From positions 1 to 32,936 of the forward strand of contig JAHEXG010000011.1 in NCBI GenBank assembly GCA_023252215.1: a stretch of 32,936 nucleotides of DNA. Reading direction: 5' to 3'. Position numbers and translations under genes: made by a program. Within the stretch, counting starts at the first letter, position 1; every line of letters starts with the position of its first letter. The DNA comes from Candidatus Altarchaeales archaeon. Its GTDB lineage: Archaea; Altiarchaeota; Altiarchaeia; IMC4; QMZM01. The notes beneath the pieces were generated by a model. The model saw nothing but the letters and a program-made list of their open reading frames with translations. It ran no database searches and was not told the DNA's origin. Below, in pieces: positions 2,137-16,425 of the stretch.

Positions 2137-2952
2137 ATGTCACGGGAGTCAGACGCGGCAGGCAAGGCAAAAAAGCTCGGTTCCTACTTTAAAAAGTTGG
2201 ACGGCGCAGTAGTCGCATTTTCAGGCGGGGTCGATTCCAGCGTACTCGCCAGGACCGCATACGATGTACTGGGGAAAAAGGCTCTTGCAGTAACGATAGA
2301 CTCTCCCACGGTCGACCGTTCAGAGCTGCAGGCCGCAGCAAAACTTGCCAAAGACATAGGCATCCGCCACATTATAGTAAAGCACGATGAACTGAAAAAC
2401 CCGTGTTTTCGCCGCAATGAACCAGACCGCTGCTACCACTGCAAAAAAGAGATGCTATCAGTGCTGAAAAAGGCGGCAGAAAAAGAAGGGATTTCCACGG
2501 TCGTCGAAGGCACGAACGCCGAGGAGATACTGGGCCACCGCCCCGGCTATGCGGCAGTGAAAGAGGCGGGCGTACGCAGCCCGCTTGCCGAATTGGACTA
2601 CAAGAAGAAAGACATACGTAAAATAGCTGCGTATCTCGGCCTGCCGAACGCGCAAAAACCCTCGATGGCATGTCTCTCGTCAAGGATACCTTATGGCACG
2701 GAAATAACAATGGAACTCCTCGACAAGGTTTCTAAAGCCGAAGCGATAGCCAGATCCGCAGGAGTAAAGCAACTGAGAGTCCGATCCATCGGCGACATAG
2801 CGGTAATAGAGGTCCTCCGGGGGGAACAAGGAAGAATCCTCGCGGACGGCGGCAGGATATCCAAGGAATTGAAGGCACTGGGTTATAAGCGCGTAGTCCT
2901 GGACCTTGACGGCTATTCGGCGGGCAAGCCATTAAGGATATCAGTTCTTTGA
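2137..2952 (+). CDS. larE: LarE-type ATP-dependent sulfur transferase
   Basis: A PP-loop ATPase of the ExsB/LarE family. The S-G-G-V-D-S-S pyrophosphate loop is at residues 29-35, C-Y-H-C at 99-102, and M-A-C-L-S-S-R-I-P-Y-G around Cys179. In Lactobacillus LarE the cysteine in the last motif is sacrificed to build the nickel-pincer cofactor of lactate racemase. Other LarE proteins carry three cysteines and are reported to use a [4Fe-4S] cluster as sulfur carrier; with Cys99, Cys102 and Cys179 this protein looks like that second type. No larA, larB or larC is visible, so the final target is unknown. The frame is open back to 1957, but homology begins at the 2137 ATG; the extra part is antisense to the nuclease start. 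Confidence 0.85.
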   Translation: MSRESDAAGKAKKLGSYFKKLDGAVVAFSGGVDSSVLARTAYDVLGKKALAVTIDSPTVDRSELQAAAKLAKDIGIRHIIVKHDELKNPCFRRNEPDRCYHCKKEMLSVLKKAAEKEGISTVVEGTNAEEILGHRPGYAAVKEAGVRSPLAELDYKKKDIRKIAAYLGLPNAQKPSMACLSSRIPYGTEITMELLDKVSKAEAIARSAGVKQLRVRSIGDIAVIEVLRGEQGRILADGGRISKELKALGYKRVVLDLDGYSAGKPLRISVL

Positions 2953-3237
2953 CCGAGACGCCATGCAGCACTTGCATATGAGCTTTGACGCCTCTTCTTT
3001 GTTTTTTGTTTTTCTCAGCTCTTTTGCGACACGCATTAAGTATTTCTTGTATTCCGCCGAGGTCTTGAATCTGCCTGCTCTTTTCTTGTGGGCGTATTGC
3101 GACACTGCCGAAGGCGTGAGGCCCAGCAGCTCTGCGACCTCTTTCTGGGACAGTCCGTTTCTCATCAGTTCTCTTGCCAAGTCCGCCCTTATCTGCGGAA
3201 GGACGTACCAGAGGGCTTCCTCGCACGGGAGTTTCAT
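2941..3237 (-). CDS. Small HTH transcriptional regulator with four cysteines
   Basis: 98 residues. Residues 29-52 are a clear XRE-like helix-turn-helix (L-S-Q-K-E-V-A-E-L-L-G-L-T-P-S-A-V-S-Q-Y). It resembles the archaeal family of predicted regulators (COG2522-like) that begin with a P-C-E motif and end in clustered cysteines. Here the only cysteines are Cys5 in K-L-P-C-E and Cys88, Cys90 and Cys91 in I-C-K-C-C, exactly four thiols that could hold an Fe-S cluster or zinc. It is divergent from the two-CDGSH gene across 93 bp that carry two palindromes also found before iscS. Its own candidate TATA box overlaps one palindrome, suggesting autoregulation. The 3' end overlaps the larE 3' end by 12 bp. 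Regulator role is strong; ligand and targets are inference. Confidence 0.8.
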   Translation of the reverse strand: MKLPCEEALWYVLPQIRADLARELMRNGLSQKEVAELLGLTPSAVSQYAHKKRAGRFKTSAEYKKYLMRVAKELRKTKNKEEASKLICKCCMASRSKN

Positions 3238-3260: not shown

Positions 3261-3275
3261 ATTAACAGCGTTAAT
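3261..3275. promoter_or_regulatory. Palindrome A: ATTAAC-AGC-GTTAAT, candidate operator
   Basis: Six-base inverted arms ATTAAC and GTTAAT around a 3-base centre AGC. The same palindrome with centre AGT occurs at 11264-11278 directly before iscS (14 of 15 bases identical). The right arm overlaps the candidate TATA box of the minus-strand HTH gene, as an autorepressor site would. Confidence 0.6.
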
Positions 3276-3298
3276 TATTATGCCAGCCCCGCTTAATA

Positions 3299-3314
3299 AT
3301 TAACGATTGTTATC
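3299..3314. promoter_or_regulatory. Palindrome B: ATTAAC-GATT-GTTATC, candidate operator
   Basis: Imperfect inverted repeat with a 4-base centre, immediately 3' of the TTAATAAT box of the CDGSH gene. The reverse complement of 3300-3312 is TAACAATCGTTAA, which occurs exactly at 11245-11257 before iscS. The position just downstream of a TATA box is typical for archaeal repression. Confidence 0.58.
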
Positions 3315-3330: not shown

Positions 3331-4065
3331 ATGAAAGAGAGCGAAAAAAGTCCGGATTCGCCCGCCGAAAAGAAGGGCTGCAAAGTGACTGTTTCCAGGA
3401 ACGGCCCCTACCTGGTCTCCGGCGGCCTTCCTTTGGCAAAGGAAAACATTGTATGCGATAAGAACGGGGATCCCGCCGAATGGAAAATGAGCCATAAGTA
3501 CCCGGACAAAGAGTCATATGCCCTCTGCCGCTGCGGCGGCTCTAAAAACAAGCCCTACTGCGACGGCACACACGCAAAAGAAGGATTTGACGGAACAGAG
3601 TCCGCCGGCCGCGAGAAATACGCAGACCAGGCCGGGAAGATAAAAGGGCCAGATCTAGTTCTAAACGATGCCGAGAGTTTTTGCGCAGTGGGCAGGTTCT
3701 GCCACCGCAAAGGGGGCACATGGAGCCTAACCGAAAGATCGAACGACCCGGGTTGTAAAGAGACGGCCATACAGGAGGCATGCGACTGCCCCTCGGGAAG
3801 GCTCGTTGCCTGCGACAAAAAGACCGGCAAACCCTATGAGCATAAGTTCGAGCGATCGGTCAGCCTTATAGAAGATCCGATAAAGAAAGTCAGCGGACCG
3901 ATTTGGATTAAAGGGGGAATTCCGCTCGAGTCGGCCGATGGAGCGAAATACGAGACCAGAAACAGAGTTACGTTATGTCGTTGCGGAAGATCGCGCAACA
4001 AGCCTCTTTGCGACGGAAGCCACATTGATGCGGGCTTCTCGGACGGGGATGAGTCTCTTGAATGA
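3331..4065 (+). CDS. Two-CDGSH iron-sulfur protein with cysteine-rich middle domain
   Basis: 244 residues. Two CDGSH [2Fe-2S] motifs are complete: C-R-C-x8-C-D-G-T-H with Cys66, Cys68, Cys77 and His81, and C-R-C-x8-C-D-G-S-H with Cys216, Cys218, Cys227 and His231. Each is preceded by the usual G-P-Y/I-x-V/I-x-G-G-(I/L)-P-L segment. Between them (about 105-180) is a third region with Cys118, Cys124, Cys142, Cys151, Cys153 and Cys161, resembling the divergent middle domain seen in archaeal and bacterial proteins of this layout. CDGSH proteins take part in redox, iron and Fe-S handling; the exact reaction here is unknown. The protein is soluble with no signal peptide. It shares promoter palindromes with the iscS operon and the neighbouring HTH gene. 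Confidence 0.9.
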   Translation: MKESEKSPDSPAEKKGCKVTVSRNGPYLVSGGLPLAKENIVCDKNGDPAEWKMSHKYPDKESYALCRCGGSKNKPYCDGTHAKEGFDGTESAGREKYADQAGKIKGPDLVLNDAESFCAVGRFCHRKGGTWSLTERSNDPGCKETAIQEACDCPSGRLVACDKKTGKPYEHKFERSVSLIEDPIKKVSGPIWIKGGIPLESADGAKYETRNRVTLCRCGRSRNKPLCDGSHIDAGFSDGDESLE

Positions 4066-11242: not shown

Positions 11243-11258
11243 ATTAACAATCGTTAAC
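11243..11258. promoter_or_regulatory. Palindrome B copy upstream of iscS
   Basis: ATTAAC-AATC-GTTAAC. The core TAACAATCGTTAA (11245-11257) is an exact 13-base match, in inverted orientation, to the site before the CDGSH gene. It overlaps TTTATTAA (11240-11247), the best TATA box for iscS, about 40 bp before the ATG. Confidence 0.6.
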
Positions 11259-11263
11259 ATATT

Positions 11264-11278
11264 ATTAACAGTGTTAAT
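11264..11278. promoter_or_regulatory. Palindrome A copy upstream of iscS
   Basis: ATTAAC-AGT-GTTAAT, 14 of 15 bases identical to the site at 3261-3275; the single difference is in the spacer. It covers the expected transcription start (about 25 bp after the TATA box) and ends 5 bp before the iscS ATG, so a bound protein would block initiation or early transcription. Confidence 0.62.
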
Positions 11279-11283
11279 TCAAG

Positions 11284-12435
11284 ATGGATAATAGGAGAGT
11301 ATATCTGGACCACGCGGCAACCACTCCGGTAGCAAAGGAGGTCCTGGAGGCGATGATGCCTTATTTTTCAGAGAAATACGGGAACGCATCGTCCCTGCAC
11401 GCATTCGGAAGAGAGGCAAAAGACGCGCTTGAGAACTCCAGGGAGAAAATAGCAAAGAAACTGAACGCCGCGCCGGAAGAGCTGTTATTCACGTCGGGCG
11501 GAACGGAGTCGAACAACCTTGCCTTGAAAGGCATCGCGCAGAATAAGGGAAAAGGGCACATAATAACGTGCAAAATAGAGCACTCGGCGATACTCGCACC
11601 CTGCAGGCTGCTTGAAAAACAGGGCTTTACGGTAACCTATCTGGGCGTGGACAAATACGGAACAGTAGACCCATCCGACGTGGAGAAGGCCGTGAGGGAC
11701 GATACCATACTGGTATCAATAGGCCACGCCAACAACGAGATAGGAACCGTCCAGGACCTGGAAGCAATCGGCAAGATAACCAAAGAAAGAGGCGTATTAT
11801 TCCATACAGACGCCTGCCAGTCTTTCACCAAGGAAGGAATCAACGTAAAAAAACAGAACCTGGACCTCGTATCGATCAATTCCCACAAGATATACGGCCC
11901 AAAAGGCGTAGGTGCCCTCTTTATCAGAGACGGAGTAAAGATATCATCCCAGTTACAGGGAGGCGAGCATGAGAAAAATCTCCGGGCAGGAACCGAGAAC
12001 GTTTCCGGCATCGCAGGATTCGCCAAAGCCGCAGAGATCGCAGGAGAAAAGGAGAATGCGAGAGTGTTGGAATTGCGAAAACGTCTAATCAAAGAAATAC
12101 TTTTCGGCGTGGAAGAGGTCAAGTTGAACGGCCACCCGGAGAAGAGGCTGTGCAATAACTCGAATTTCTCGTTCAATGGAATAGAAGGAGAGTCCATCCT
12201 GCTGCGACTGGACATGCTGGGCGTGGCCTGCTCTACGGCATCTGCGTGTTCTTCTCATTCCCTGATGCCAAGCCACGTGCTTCTTGCAACCGGGATGAAG
12301 CCGGAGGAATGCCACGGCAGCCTTAGGATGACATTGGGCAGGGACAACACAAAGGAGGACATAGATTACGCTATATCCGCAGTGAAAGAAGAAGTAGCTA
12401 ATCTGCGCAGGATATCTCCTTTCTGGAGGAAATAG
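11284..12435 (+). CDS. iscS: Cysteine desulfurase (NifS/IscS family)
   Basis: 383 residues. The PLP-dependent enzyme releases sulfur from cysteine as a persulfide for Fe-S assembly. Seen are Y-L-D-H-A-A-T-T-P near the start, S-G-G-T-E-S-N-N (71-78), H-T-D-A-C-Q (174-179), the PLP lysine in S-H-K-I-Y-G-P-K-G (Lys202), and the active cysteine in S-T-A-S-A-C-S-S (Cys322) followed by S-L-M-P-S-H-V-L. Length is normal. It opens an operon with iscU 4 bp downstream, then a copper protein and copA. Two palindromes shared with the HTH/CDGSH promoter cover its TATA box and start region, so it is probably repressed by a DNA-binding protein that recognises both loci. Confidence 0.96.
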   Translation: MDNRRVYLDHAATTPVAKEVLEAMMPYFSEKYGNASSLHAFGREAKDALENSREKIAKKLNAAPEELLFTSGGTESNNLALKGIAQNKGKGHIITCKIEHSAILAPCRLLEKQGFTVTYLGVDKYGTVDPSDVEKAVRDDTILVSIGHANNEIGTVQDLEAIGKITKERGVLFHTDACQSFTKEGINVKKQNLDLVSINSHKIYGPKGVGALFIRDGVKISSQLQGGEHEKNLRAGTENVSGIAGFAKAAEIAGEKENARVLELRKRLIKEILFGVEEVKLNGHPEKRLCNNSNFSFNGIEGESILLRLDMLGVACSTASACSSHSLMPSHVLLATGMKPEECHGSLRMTLGRDNTKEDIDYAISAVKEEVANLRRISPFWRK

Positions 12436-12439
12436 AAAA

Positions 12440-12895
12440 ATGTACAGCAAAGACGTGATGGAACACTTTATGCATCCCAGGAATGTCGGGGAGATGCCGG
12501 ACGCCGACGGAGTGGGGGAAGTAGGAAACCCTGTATGCGGAGACATCATGTGGATCTATATCAAGGTAAAAGACGACAGGATAGAGGACATAAAATTCAA
12601 GACATTAGGCTGCGCAGCGGCTATTGCCACCAGCAGCAAAGTAACGGAACTAGCCAAAGGGAGAACCCTTGACGAAGCTTTGGATTTGTCCAATAAGGAG
12701 ATCGTCGAATCCCTCGGCGGCCTTCCGCCCGTGAAGATTCATTGCTCGCTCCTTGCAGTGGATGGCTTAAAGGAAGCCATCCATGATTTTCTGGCAAAGA
12801 ACAAGCGGCCTATCCCGGACAAACTGGAAAAGGAGCATCAGAAGATAAAGGCGGAAAAATGCGAAACAGGTTCGCATGATCACAATGACCAGTAA
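12440..12895 (+). CDS. iscU: Fe-S cluster scaffold IscU/NifU N-domain
   Basis: 151 residues. The scaffold receives sulfur from IscS and holds the nascent cluster. The three ligand cysteines are Cys33 (G-N-P-V-C-G-D, with Asp35 beside it), Cys58 (T-L-G-C-A-A-A-I-A) and Cys102 (K-I-H-C-S-L-L-A). The N-terminal Y-S-K-x-V-M-E-H-F-x-x-P-R-N-V-G is typical. After the domain there is a charged extension ending with Cys141, His146 and His148 (C-E-T-G-S-H-D-H), which could bind metal. It begins 4 bp after iscS and overlaps the start of the next gene by up to 20 bp, so translation is coupled with the copper protein. Confidence 0.95.
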   Translation: MYSKDVMEHFMHPRNVGEMPDADGVGEVGNPVCGDIMWIYIKVKDDRIEDIKFKTLGCAAAIATSSKVTELAKGRTLDEALDLSNKEIVESLGGLPPVKIHCSLLAVDGLKEAIHDFLAKNKRPIPDKLEKEHQKIKAEKCETGSHDHNDQ

Positions 12896-14237
12896 ACGAA
12901 CGACGGAATTCCGAGTGGGCGGGATGACCTGCAGCCTCTGCGAAAAGAGGGTCGCGAAAGCTGCAAAATCCGTTGAAGGCGTAGACAGCGTCTCCGTGGA
13001 CTACGGAACGGGTAAGGCGCGGATAAGCTACGATCCCGACAAGACCATTCCTGAGAAAGTCTTTGAGAAAATAGAGGCCGAAGGCTATTCCTGCAGCCTG
13101 CCGGGCGACAAGAAGAATGAGGATAAAAATTCGTTACTTAGTTCTATTATCAGCATCCTTTTGGTCCTGGCCGGAGCATATCTGTTATTCGGCGGATTCT
13201 TTGACGCGGATATGCCGGATATCGACCGGGATGCGTCATTGTTCCTTATCTTCACGCTGGGCCTTGTAACTGGTTTCCACTGCATAGCGATGTGCGGAGG
13301 ATTTGTGATATCATATTCGACAAAACATGTAGCAGGGGGCAAAAACTTTAAGTCGCATCTCGTATATGGCGCATCAAAGACCCTTTCATATACTCTTATA
13401 GGGGGCATCTTCGGGCTGCTGGGTTCATTCATCGTATTCACGCCCATGCTTAAAGCAATAGCTGCGGGCCTGGCCGGATGTTTCCTGTTATTGTACGGAC
13501 TAAATATGCTTGGAATGATCCGGTTCCGGCTGAAAGGCCCCGCATTCCTTGAAAAATATTCGAATGCAAACAGCTCTAATCCCGCAGCCATCGGATTCGC
13601 AAACAGCCTGATGCTCGCATGCGGCCCGCTCCAGGCGATGTACGTCCTTGCGGCGGCATCGGGAAGCGCATTAACGGGCGCACTGTACCTGCTGGCATTC
13701 GGTTTAGGTACGCTGCCGGTACTCCTCGGATTCGGCCTCCTGACGTCAGTTATCAGCGGGAGGCTTACGCAGAACATAATCAAGTATTCCGGGGTCATAG
13801 TGATACTCCTGGGCCTTGTCATGCTCAACCGCGGCCTGATACTATCGGGAACGGGATATGATTACAAGAACTTATTCGGCAGGCAGGGCGTCTCCCAGGA
13901 ACAAGTTACTACGACCTTTGTGTCGACCACCGCAGGCCAGGTCGTTACATCTACTCCGCCCACTTCTTTAGCATACCAGGTGATATATATGAACGTTACT
14001 GCCCGGGGATGGCAGCCGGATACGTTCACACTGAAAAAAGGAGTCCCCGTGAAATGGGTAATAGACGGACAACAGATCACGGGATGCAATAAGGCGATAC
14101 AGGTGCCCAAACTGGGCCTGCAATTCGACATAAAGATGGGCCGGCAGACCGTTGAATTCACCCCCGCGGAAGCGGGCACCGTGCCCTGGAGCTGCTGGAT
14201 GGGGATGATAGACGGAAAATTCATAGTCGTGGAGTGA
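12876..14237 (+). CDS. HMA / SafE-like membrane / cupredoxin three-domain copper protein
   Basis: 453 residues from 12876, with an equally good ATG at 12885. Residues 11-75 are an HMA domain with G-G-M-T-C-S-L-C (Cys19, Cys22). Residues about 120-325 are a six-TM SafE/TauE-like (DsbD-related) membrane domain with F-H-C-I-A-M-C-G-G (Cys136, Cys140) and [10 protein letters not shown] (Cys249). A Thr/Ser-rich linker leads to a cupredoxin-like domain (about 366-453) with candidate copper ligands Cys404 (I-T-G-C-N), Cys440, Met442 and Met444 (P-W-S-C-W-M-G-M). This layout is known in bacteria near copper ATPases. It probably moves copper or reducing power across the membrane, with the cupredoxin outside. 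The first 20 bp overlap iscU, and copA starts 4 bp after the stop. Confidence 0.86.
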
Positions 14238-14241
14238 AGAT

Positions 14242-16425
14242 ATGAAAAAGGCCACATTTAAGGTATCCGGGATGCACTGCGTGAACTGCGCGGCTAATAT
14301 CGCCAAGTCTTTGGAAAAGACTCTCGGAGTTTTCAACGTCAACGTGAGCTTTGCTTCTGGTAAGGCTCTTGTCGAATATGATGAGAAAAAATTGGATACT
14401 GGAAAGATCATTGCAGTAATCAAGGTCCTCGGATTCGATGCCAGGGTGTCCACCGAAGCAGACAGGTCACGCGAGGAATTGGAGAACAAAAAAGAGCTTT
14501 CCAGGATGAAGCGCATGCTATTATTTAGTATCGCGCTTGCGCTGCCTGCTTTTATTATAGGGATGTTCTATATGCAGGGAATACCATACGCCGAGTATGT
14601 CCTTTTCCTGCTGGCGACGCCAATACAGTTCATAGCAGGCGCTCCGTTCTATAAAGGGGCGTGGGGGGCATTGAAGAACAAGACGAGCAGCATGGATACG
14701 CTTGTCGCCCTGGGAACGTCGGCCGCGTATTTCTACAGCGTGGCAGTGCTTTTAACCGCGCCAATGAAGGATGTGTATTTTGAGACGAGCGCGGTCCTTA
14801 TAACCCTTGTTCTGCTGGGCAAATACCTTGAAGCAAATGCCAGAGGCAAGACCAGCCAGGCCATCGCAAGGCTCGTGGACCTTGCGCCGAAAACTGCAAC
14901 CGTAATACGCGACGGAGTGGAAGCCATTGTTCCTGTGGAGGAGGTAGTCGTAGGAGACGTCATACGGGTCAAGCCCGGGGAGAGCATACCAGTAGACGGC
15001 GTCATCATCGTGGGCGCAAGCAGCGTGGACGAGTCCATGATAACCGGCGAAAGCCTGCCTGTGGAAAAATCCGTTGGGAGCCGGGTCATCGGCTCTACGA
15101 TAAACAAGCACGGAGCATTCACGTTCAAGGCAACGAAGGTGGGCAAGGACACAATGCTGGCCCAGATAATAAGGCTCGTCGAGGATGCCCAGGGCTCCAA
15201 GGCTCCTGTGCAGCGTTTCGCAGACACGGTCTCTTCATACTTTGTGCCGGCCGTGATCCTGATAGCGGTCGCCTCGTTCGCGCTGTGGTTCTTTGCATTC
15301 CAAAAGCCCCTCGATTTCGCGCTCATGGCCGCAGTATCCGTTCTGGTCATATCCTGCCCCTGCGCCCTCGGCCTTGCGACGCCGACCGCGGTTATCGTTG
15401 GGATAGGAAAAGGCGCAAGCAGCGGAATACTCATAAAGAGCGGAACGGCCCTTGAGACTGCGCAGAATTTGGACTATGTCGTATTCGACAAGACCGGTAC
15501 GCTCACCGTGGGCAAGCCGAAGGTGACTGACGTCGTTTCTTTGGGGGAATACTCCAATGACGTCGTAGTAGGATACGCGGCAGGTATCGAGCATTCTTCC
15601 GAGCATCCGCTGGCAGACGCATTAATGGAATACGCCAAAGACCGGAAGATCAAATTGTCCAATGTCGCGGATTTTTCGGCAGTCCCGGGCCTGGGCGTGT
15701 CTGGAAAAATAGACAGCCAGATGGTCTTCCTTGGGAGCCGCGCTCTCATGGCAAAAGAAAGAATAGACCTGTCCTCCGCTGAAGACATACTAGCAAAGCT
15801 GGAAAACGAAGGGAAGACAGCGATGCTGCTCTCAGTCGGAAACAAGATAGCGGCGGTAATAGCGGTCGCAGACACTTTGAAGGAATCGTCCAAAAAAGCA
15901 GTCAAAGAACTACAGGACATGGGCCTCGAGGTATATCTGTTGACAGGAGACAACAAGAGGACTGGGGAAGCGATCGCCGGGATGCTGGGCATAGAAAAGG
16001 TTTACGCACAGGTTCTGCCGCAAGACAAAGCCAAACATATAAAAGAGCTCCAGGATGCGGGCAAGACCGTGGCCATGGTGGGAGACGGCATAAACGATGC
16101 GCCTGCTCTTGCGCAGGCGAACGTGGGAATAGCCATGTCATCCGGAACAGACGTTGCCATAGAATCGGGAGGGATAGTGCTGATGAAAAACGACCCGCTT
16201 GCAGTGGCCAGCGCAATAAGGCTTTCCAGGCAGACCATGAACAAGATAAAGCAGAACATGTTCTGGGCGCTGATATATAACGCGCTGGGAATACCGGTAG
16301 CGGCCGGAGTCCTGTATCCGTATACCGGGTGGCTGCTTTCGCCGATCATTGCGGGAGGCGCTATGGCTTTGAGTTCTGTTTCGGTTGTGACGAATTCTCT
16401 TGCCTTGAGGTATAAGAAGATCTGA
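14242..16425 (+). CDS. copA: Copper-exporting P1B-type ATPase
   Basis: 727 residues. One N-terminal HMA domain has G-M-H-C-V-N-C (Cys13, Cys16). The actuator T-G-E is at 268-270, the transmembrane C-P-C at 372-374 ([12 protein letters not shown]), the phosphorylated Asp416 in D-K-T-G-T-L-T, H-P in S-E-H-P-L-A, and [11 protein letters not shown] near residue 615. The last helices carry Y-N-A-L-G-I-P and M-A-L-S-S-V-S-V-V, the P1B-1 signature for Cu+. The enzyme pumps Cu+ out of the cytoplasm. It is the last gene of the iscS operon; after it come tandem T-tracts. No copper-specific regulator (CopY, CueR or CopT type) is adjacent, which supports control by the iscS promoter. Confidence 0.97.

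Follow-up and report, generated by a model that had tools for sequence, protein, structure and literature searches.

A 98-residue helix-turn-helix (HTH) protein encoded in the window, the 32,936-nucleotide stretch of Candidatus Altarchaeales archaeon DNA analyzed here, appears to be an autoregulated, palindrome-binding repressor that carries an Fe-S cluster on conserved cysteines. We hold this complete statement to be somewhat better than an even bet, and its regulator-plus-operator part alone to be very likely. Regulation of Fe-S and sulfur genes by the HTH family to which the protein belongs is strongly supported by sequence comparison, whereas an Fe-S cluster on the cysteines is plausible, and we treat them as a candidate cluster site. 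Archaea probably control Fe-S assembly through a switch that is unrelated to those of bacteria.

The putative regulator, the palindromes and neighboring genes

The regulator, the putative operators and the putative target genes occupy two parts of the window:

2941..3237, minus strand: HTH regulator, 98 aa (ORF and Pfam HTH_3)
3262..3274, no strand: operator 1, TTAACAGCGTTAA, putative autoregulation site, 24 bp upstream of the regulator ATG
3273..3280, minus strand: TATA-like element TAATAATT, abutting operator 1, candidate regulator promoter (sequence; tentative assignment)
3293..3300, plus strand: TATA-like element TTAATAAT, abutting operator 2, candidate CDGSH promoter (sequence; tentative assignment)
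3300..3313, no strand: operator 2, TTAACGATTGTTAT / TTAACGATTGTTAt, upstream of the CDGSH gene (motif search)
3331..4065, plus strand: CDGSH iron-sulfur protein with two CDGSH repeats and Fer4_19, divergent putative target (domain search)
11244..11257, no strand: operator 3, TTAACAATCGTTAA, before iscS, unchanged in the same-genus relative
11265..11277, no strand: operator 4, TTAACAGTGTTAA, before iscS (motif search)
11284..12435, plus strand: iscS, cysteine desulfurase, at the head of the putative target operon (domain search)
12440..12895, plus strand: iscU scaffold, NifU_N (domain search)
12876..14237, plus strand: HMA / DsbD_2 / cupredoxin-like membrane protein, overlapping iscU, same putative operon (ORF and domain search)
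14242..16425, plus strand: P-type heavy-metal (copper) ATPase, putative operon end (domain search)

The ORF at 2941-3237 is a real gene, since a homologue with 67-68% identity is found in the same genus; its 3′ end overlaps that of a convergent larE-like gene by ~12 bp (2941-2952). Close relatives, one of them an Altiarchaeota MAG, suggest a host within Candidatus Altiarchaeota. HTH_3 is the only domain recognized in the protein, and its Pfam score of 29 bits against a curated cut-off of 23 places the protein in the HTH_3/XRE superfamily. The AlphaFold2 model (pLDDT 84) consists of five helices (residues 4-26, 31-38, 42-49, 61-76 and 80-97), the first and last of which carry the cysteines, and the recognition helix is predicted at about residues 42-49. 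A Foldseek search gave no match at E ≤ 0.001, the best hits being designed HTH, TrpR and XRE-like folds, and searches of NCBIfam and of PDB sequences yielded generic HTH proteins only, with no other solved relative.

A previous sequence-only reading of this DNA had described a 98-residue HTH protein with exactly four cysteines, and the ORF bears this out: they are residues 5, 88, 90 and 91, with none elsewhere. At the cysteine frequency of the window, at least four cysteines in 98 residues have P ~0.064. The count is therefore not striking, and we rejected it as a stand-alone argument.

The same reading placed the gene divergent from an Fe-S protein gene, with shared palindromes in its promoter. 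The regulator and CDGSH genes indeed face apart across a 93-bp gap, and the palindromes are real, starting at 3262 and 3300 and appearing again before iscS at 11244 and 11265. The CDGSH protein has 244 residues, with the Fer4_19 domain lying between its two CDGSH repeats. At the second locus, iscS is directly followed by iscU, the HMA/DsbD membrane protein and the copper-type ATPase, and we therefore regard the four genes as a putative operon.

Palindromes in both promoters share the form TTAAC-N3/4-GTTAA. Operators 1 and 2 are separated by 38.5 bp and operators 3 and 4 by 20.5 bp, centre to centre. Both spacings are equal in the same-genus relative, where the motif recurs in sequence and spacing before iscS and the CDGSH gene and operator 1 is kept as TTAACGCCGTTAA. 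Genome-wide, TTAACN3-4GTTAA occurs at just seven sites, three of them within the HTH/CDGSH and iscS promoters; the reversed control gives none. Three other lines were rejected. Within the window alone the palindrome is weakly but not significantly above shuffles, so we do not treat it as a local enrichment. A fixed 34-bp spaced inverted repeat taken from the promoter gave one chance match with two mismatches, and loose-motif sites elsewhere in the genome (C32, C44, C47 and C54) appear fortuitous, most of them falling within or close to unrelated genes.

Archaeal repressors usually bind at or close to the TATA box and start region. Because the sites here overlap or adjoin these elements, and one of them sits in the promoter of the regulator itself, we infer autorepression as well as repression of the isc and CDGSH genes. 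On this view the window protein, a transcription factor from a distinct archaeal HTH family, would act as a dimer and regulate its own synthesis. Bound to TTAAC-N3/4-GTTAA palindromes that cover or border the TATA box and start region, it would block transcription of its own gene, the CDGSH gene and the iscS-iscU-HMA/DsbD-copper-ATPase operon. Less firmly, C5 and the C-terminal C88-x2-C91, together with C90 in this protein, would most likely hold an Fe-S cluster, whose loss under iron, sulfur or copper stress would alter DNA binding and so adjust Fe-S supply, much as in bacterial IscR.

Gene neighborhood and putative operator across archaea

A family profile built from 20 homologues detects HTH-family members in 116 of 198 archaeal genomes, most of which are incomplete MAGs and some of which are related and hence not independent. 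Gene labels at the compared loci rest on similarity to a few references. Genes for iscU or sufB/D lie within 8 kb of 35 of the 150 listed HTH-family genes, from 22 families, and within 2.5 kb of 29; the corresponding count for TrmB-family regulators in the same 198 genomes is 0 of 150 among the matches listed. In many lineages the HTH gene is the first gene of an isc or suf operon, lies inside it or is divergent from it. The order HTH-iscS-iscU occurs in Micrarchaeota, Iainarchaeum, Woesearchaeota and others, and further arrangements are HTH-sufB-D-S-U-C, divergent HTH/sufC-B-S-U and divergent HTH/iscS-U. Some of these loci are adjoined by feoA/feoB. In a sister family of the window's order, the HTH gene stands beside cysK, cysE, metX and metY, with the motif preceding cysK and metY. 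About half of the family members have no recognized Fe-S gene nearby.

One genome (G013; loci L041, L042 and L044) encodes five HTH paralogues, some of which adjoin heterodisulfide-reductase-like, molybdopterin-oxidoreductase-like and CO-dehydrogenase-like genes, a layout that would suit one paralogue per set of Fe-S enzymes.

Within the window's order, TTAACRATYGTTA is present in seven of eight genomes with the HTH gene versus one of 16 without it (p = 1.8e-4, with related genomes not being independent). The lone HTH-less genome is 70% complete and has its site right before iscS. Other sites in genomes of the order include two in G019, before an apbE operon and before an HMA-DsbD/copper-ATPase operon. 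In that genome the HMA-DsbD/copper-ATPase pair stands alone (L190) with its own palindrome upstream; in the window the same pair follows iscU.

For the scan across archaea, a looser TAAC-N3/4-GTTA was sought within 150 bp upstream of genes. It precedes 41 of 97 HTH-family genes, for which shuffles expect ~0.8 in total, and 12 of 637 other, unrelated genes nearby. In a distant lineage (G131), two sites 21 bp apart, a tandem spacing as in the window, precede an operon for an FAD-binding APS-reductase-like subunit, ATP-sulfurylase and sulfite-reductase-like proteins, while the HTH gene lies on the opposite strand at the end of this sulfate-assimilation gene run. The motif is missing upstream of the HTH gene in several relatives, among them L039, methanogen members of f33 and G016. 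Together, the comparative sequence data put both the cysteines and the palindromes far beyond chance.

The looser motif also occurs upstream of Thi4 and ThiI-like genes (L078:5608-8491 and L200:899), which suggests that in some lineages the regulon may extend to sulfur transfer for thiamine. At L055:3294, TTAACTACTGTTAA lies just upstream of another HTH gene followed by HMG-CoA-synthase-like and thiolase-like genes; this may be chance or the site of a different regulator.

A wider proposal can be framed from these data, namely that an ancient, domain-wide family of Fe-S cluster-sensing HTH repressors with no relation to IscR or SufR acts via one operator, conserved from DPANN to Euryarchaeota, to control Isc/Suf assembly, the uptake of iron, the supply of cysteine and the export of copper. 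We advance it tentatively, its chances falling just short of even.

Cysteine conservation and the candidate signal

The sequence-only reading had counted four thiol ligands, proposing conservation in homologues beside isc genes or a CDGSH gene as a check and lack of conservation as grounds for abandoning the idea. Three of the four are kept in homologues beside isc/suf genes, so those grounds did not arise. C5 is kept by 74 of 97 members, C88 by 77 and C91 by 79, whereas C90 occurs in five, all from Altiarchaeota, and is rejected as a family-wide ligand. Members that lack C5 mostly possess a C-x2-H...C-x2-C tail or retain C88/C91. At least three cysteines are found in 50 of 50 regulon-linked members versus 119 of 326 background ORFs, and the only two cysteine-poor members are both among the 47 others, away from regulon genes.

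The targets comprise Fe-S assembly, an Fe-S protein, cysteine supply, sulfate assimilation, iron uptake neighbors and copper export. All bear on the supply of Fe-S clusters, for which copper is a known poison; an Fe-S cluster is therefore our preferred signal. The regulon also includes cysteine, methionine and sulfate assimilation, however, so the signal may instead be sulfur or cysteine, which the cysteine biosynthesis and sulfate assimilation targets suit equally well. This is the main rival: the regulator and regulon would be the same, but the cysteines would sense sulfur status directly (cysteine, sulfide/persulfide or thiol redox), functionally like CymR or the BigR/SqrR persulfide sensors. 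It draws on the nearest relatives, with their cysK, cysE, metX and metY neighbors and palindromes before cysK and metY, on the tandem sites of the G131 sulfate assimilation operon adjoining the HTH gene, and on the Thi4 genes that bear the motif in some genomes. It does not directly explain the feoA/feoB adjacency or why copper-ATPase, apbE and CDGSH genes are among the targets, and we consider it possible but rather unlikely.

A C-x2-C with further Cys or His also suits zinc, and the C-x2-C ... C-x2-H ... C-x2-C tails of many members resemble zinc knuckles. The cysteines could thus form a structural zinc site, with iron, a protein partner or a metabolite as effector, or zinc or copper could itself be the signal, as the copper-ATPase genes within the regulon might hint. 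Yet close relatives keep only three or four cysteines, divided between the N- and C-termini, and the targets are Fe-S and sulfur genes rather than zinc genes, leaving this explanation doubtful.

It is very improbable that another regulator binds the palindromes and the HTH gene is merely a neighbor, because motif and HTH co-occur over genomes and lineages and the motif lies in the HTH gene's own promoter in distant lineages. Least credible of all is the reading of the protein as an XRE-type antitoxin or phage-like repressor of the ordinary kind, its cysteines being a coincidence, which fits the HTH_3 domain and the fact that four cysteines alone are not improbable (P ~0.06) but is contradicted by the domain-wide isc/suf linkage and the conserved cysteines.

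Relation to known regulators

The preferred reading, an Fe-S-responsive repressor, concerns Fe-S cluster biogenesis in archaea, on which published work covering the Methanosarcina ISC and SUF systems sets out the genes but names no regulator (PMC7585200, PMC10500019). We found no description of the HTH family as an Fe-S regulator in the open-access literature, though subscription journals could hold earlier work; papers on M. mazei MM2441 and Halobacterium RosR that cite IscR concern other regulators and were set aside. The finding puts forward a specific family as a candidate, together with an operator sequence and a set of genes predicted to form its regulon. If true, unrelated switches evolved in bacteria and in archaea to control one essential pathway.

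Like bacterial IscR, an Rrf2 protein, the window regulator belongs to a family whose genes head or adjoin isc/suf operons, and it combines a putative autoregulatory site with palindromic operators and few conserved cysteines. The HTH family thus shows the isc/suf adjacency, shared operator and autoregulatory site of an IscR-type regulator, by analogy and not by homology. IscR cysteines are spaced C-x5-C-x5-C-x2-H, whereas family members are HTH_3 proteins of ~98-130 residues with a cysteine at the N-terminus and a C-terminal C-x2-C. In IscR, DNA binding is modulated by a [2Fe-2S] cluster, a trait that the window protein may share. The window protein has no Pfam match to Rrf2 at E ≤ 0.01 and no NCBIfam match to the IscR model at E ≤ 1. 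Bacterial SufR resembles the family in its suf operon linkage and its cysteines but has a different domain, and its model is absent from the NCBIfam matches up to E = 1. Unrelatedness in sequence to IscR and SufR, claimed in the earlier reading, therefore holds at the level of the Rrf2, IscR and SufR models. The neighborhoods, motif sharing and absence of these matches lend strong support to its proposal that the protein would be an archaeal counterpart of both.

CymR, an Rrf2 protein of Firmicutes and a relative of an Fe-S regulator, likewise targets cysteine supply genes; unlike CymR, the window protein is not an Rrf2 protein, and its sites are TTAAC-N3/4-GTTAA. The ThiN C-terminal domain that marks ThiR was not found in the 98-residue window protein, in which only HTH domains match. 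ThiR-like archaeal HTH-ThiN proteins (~300 aa), which we take to be grouped under COG2522, have a related HTH domain detected by weak matches. They differ in possessing a long C-terminal domain and lacking both C5 and the C-x2-C, whereas the window protein consists of the HTH only.
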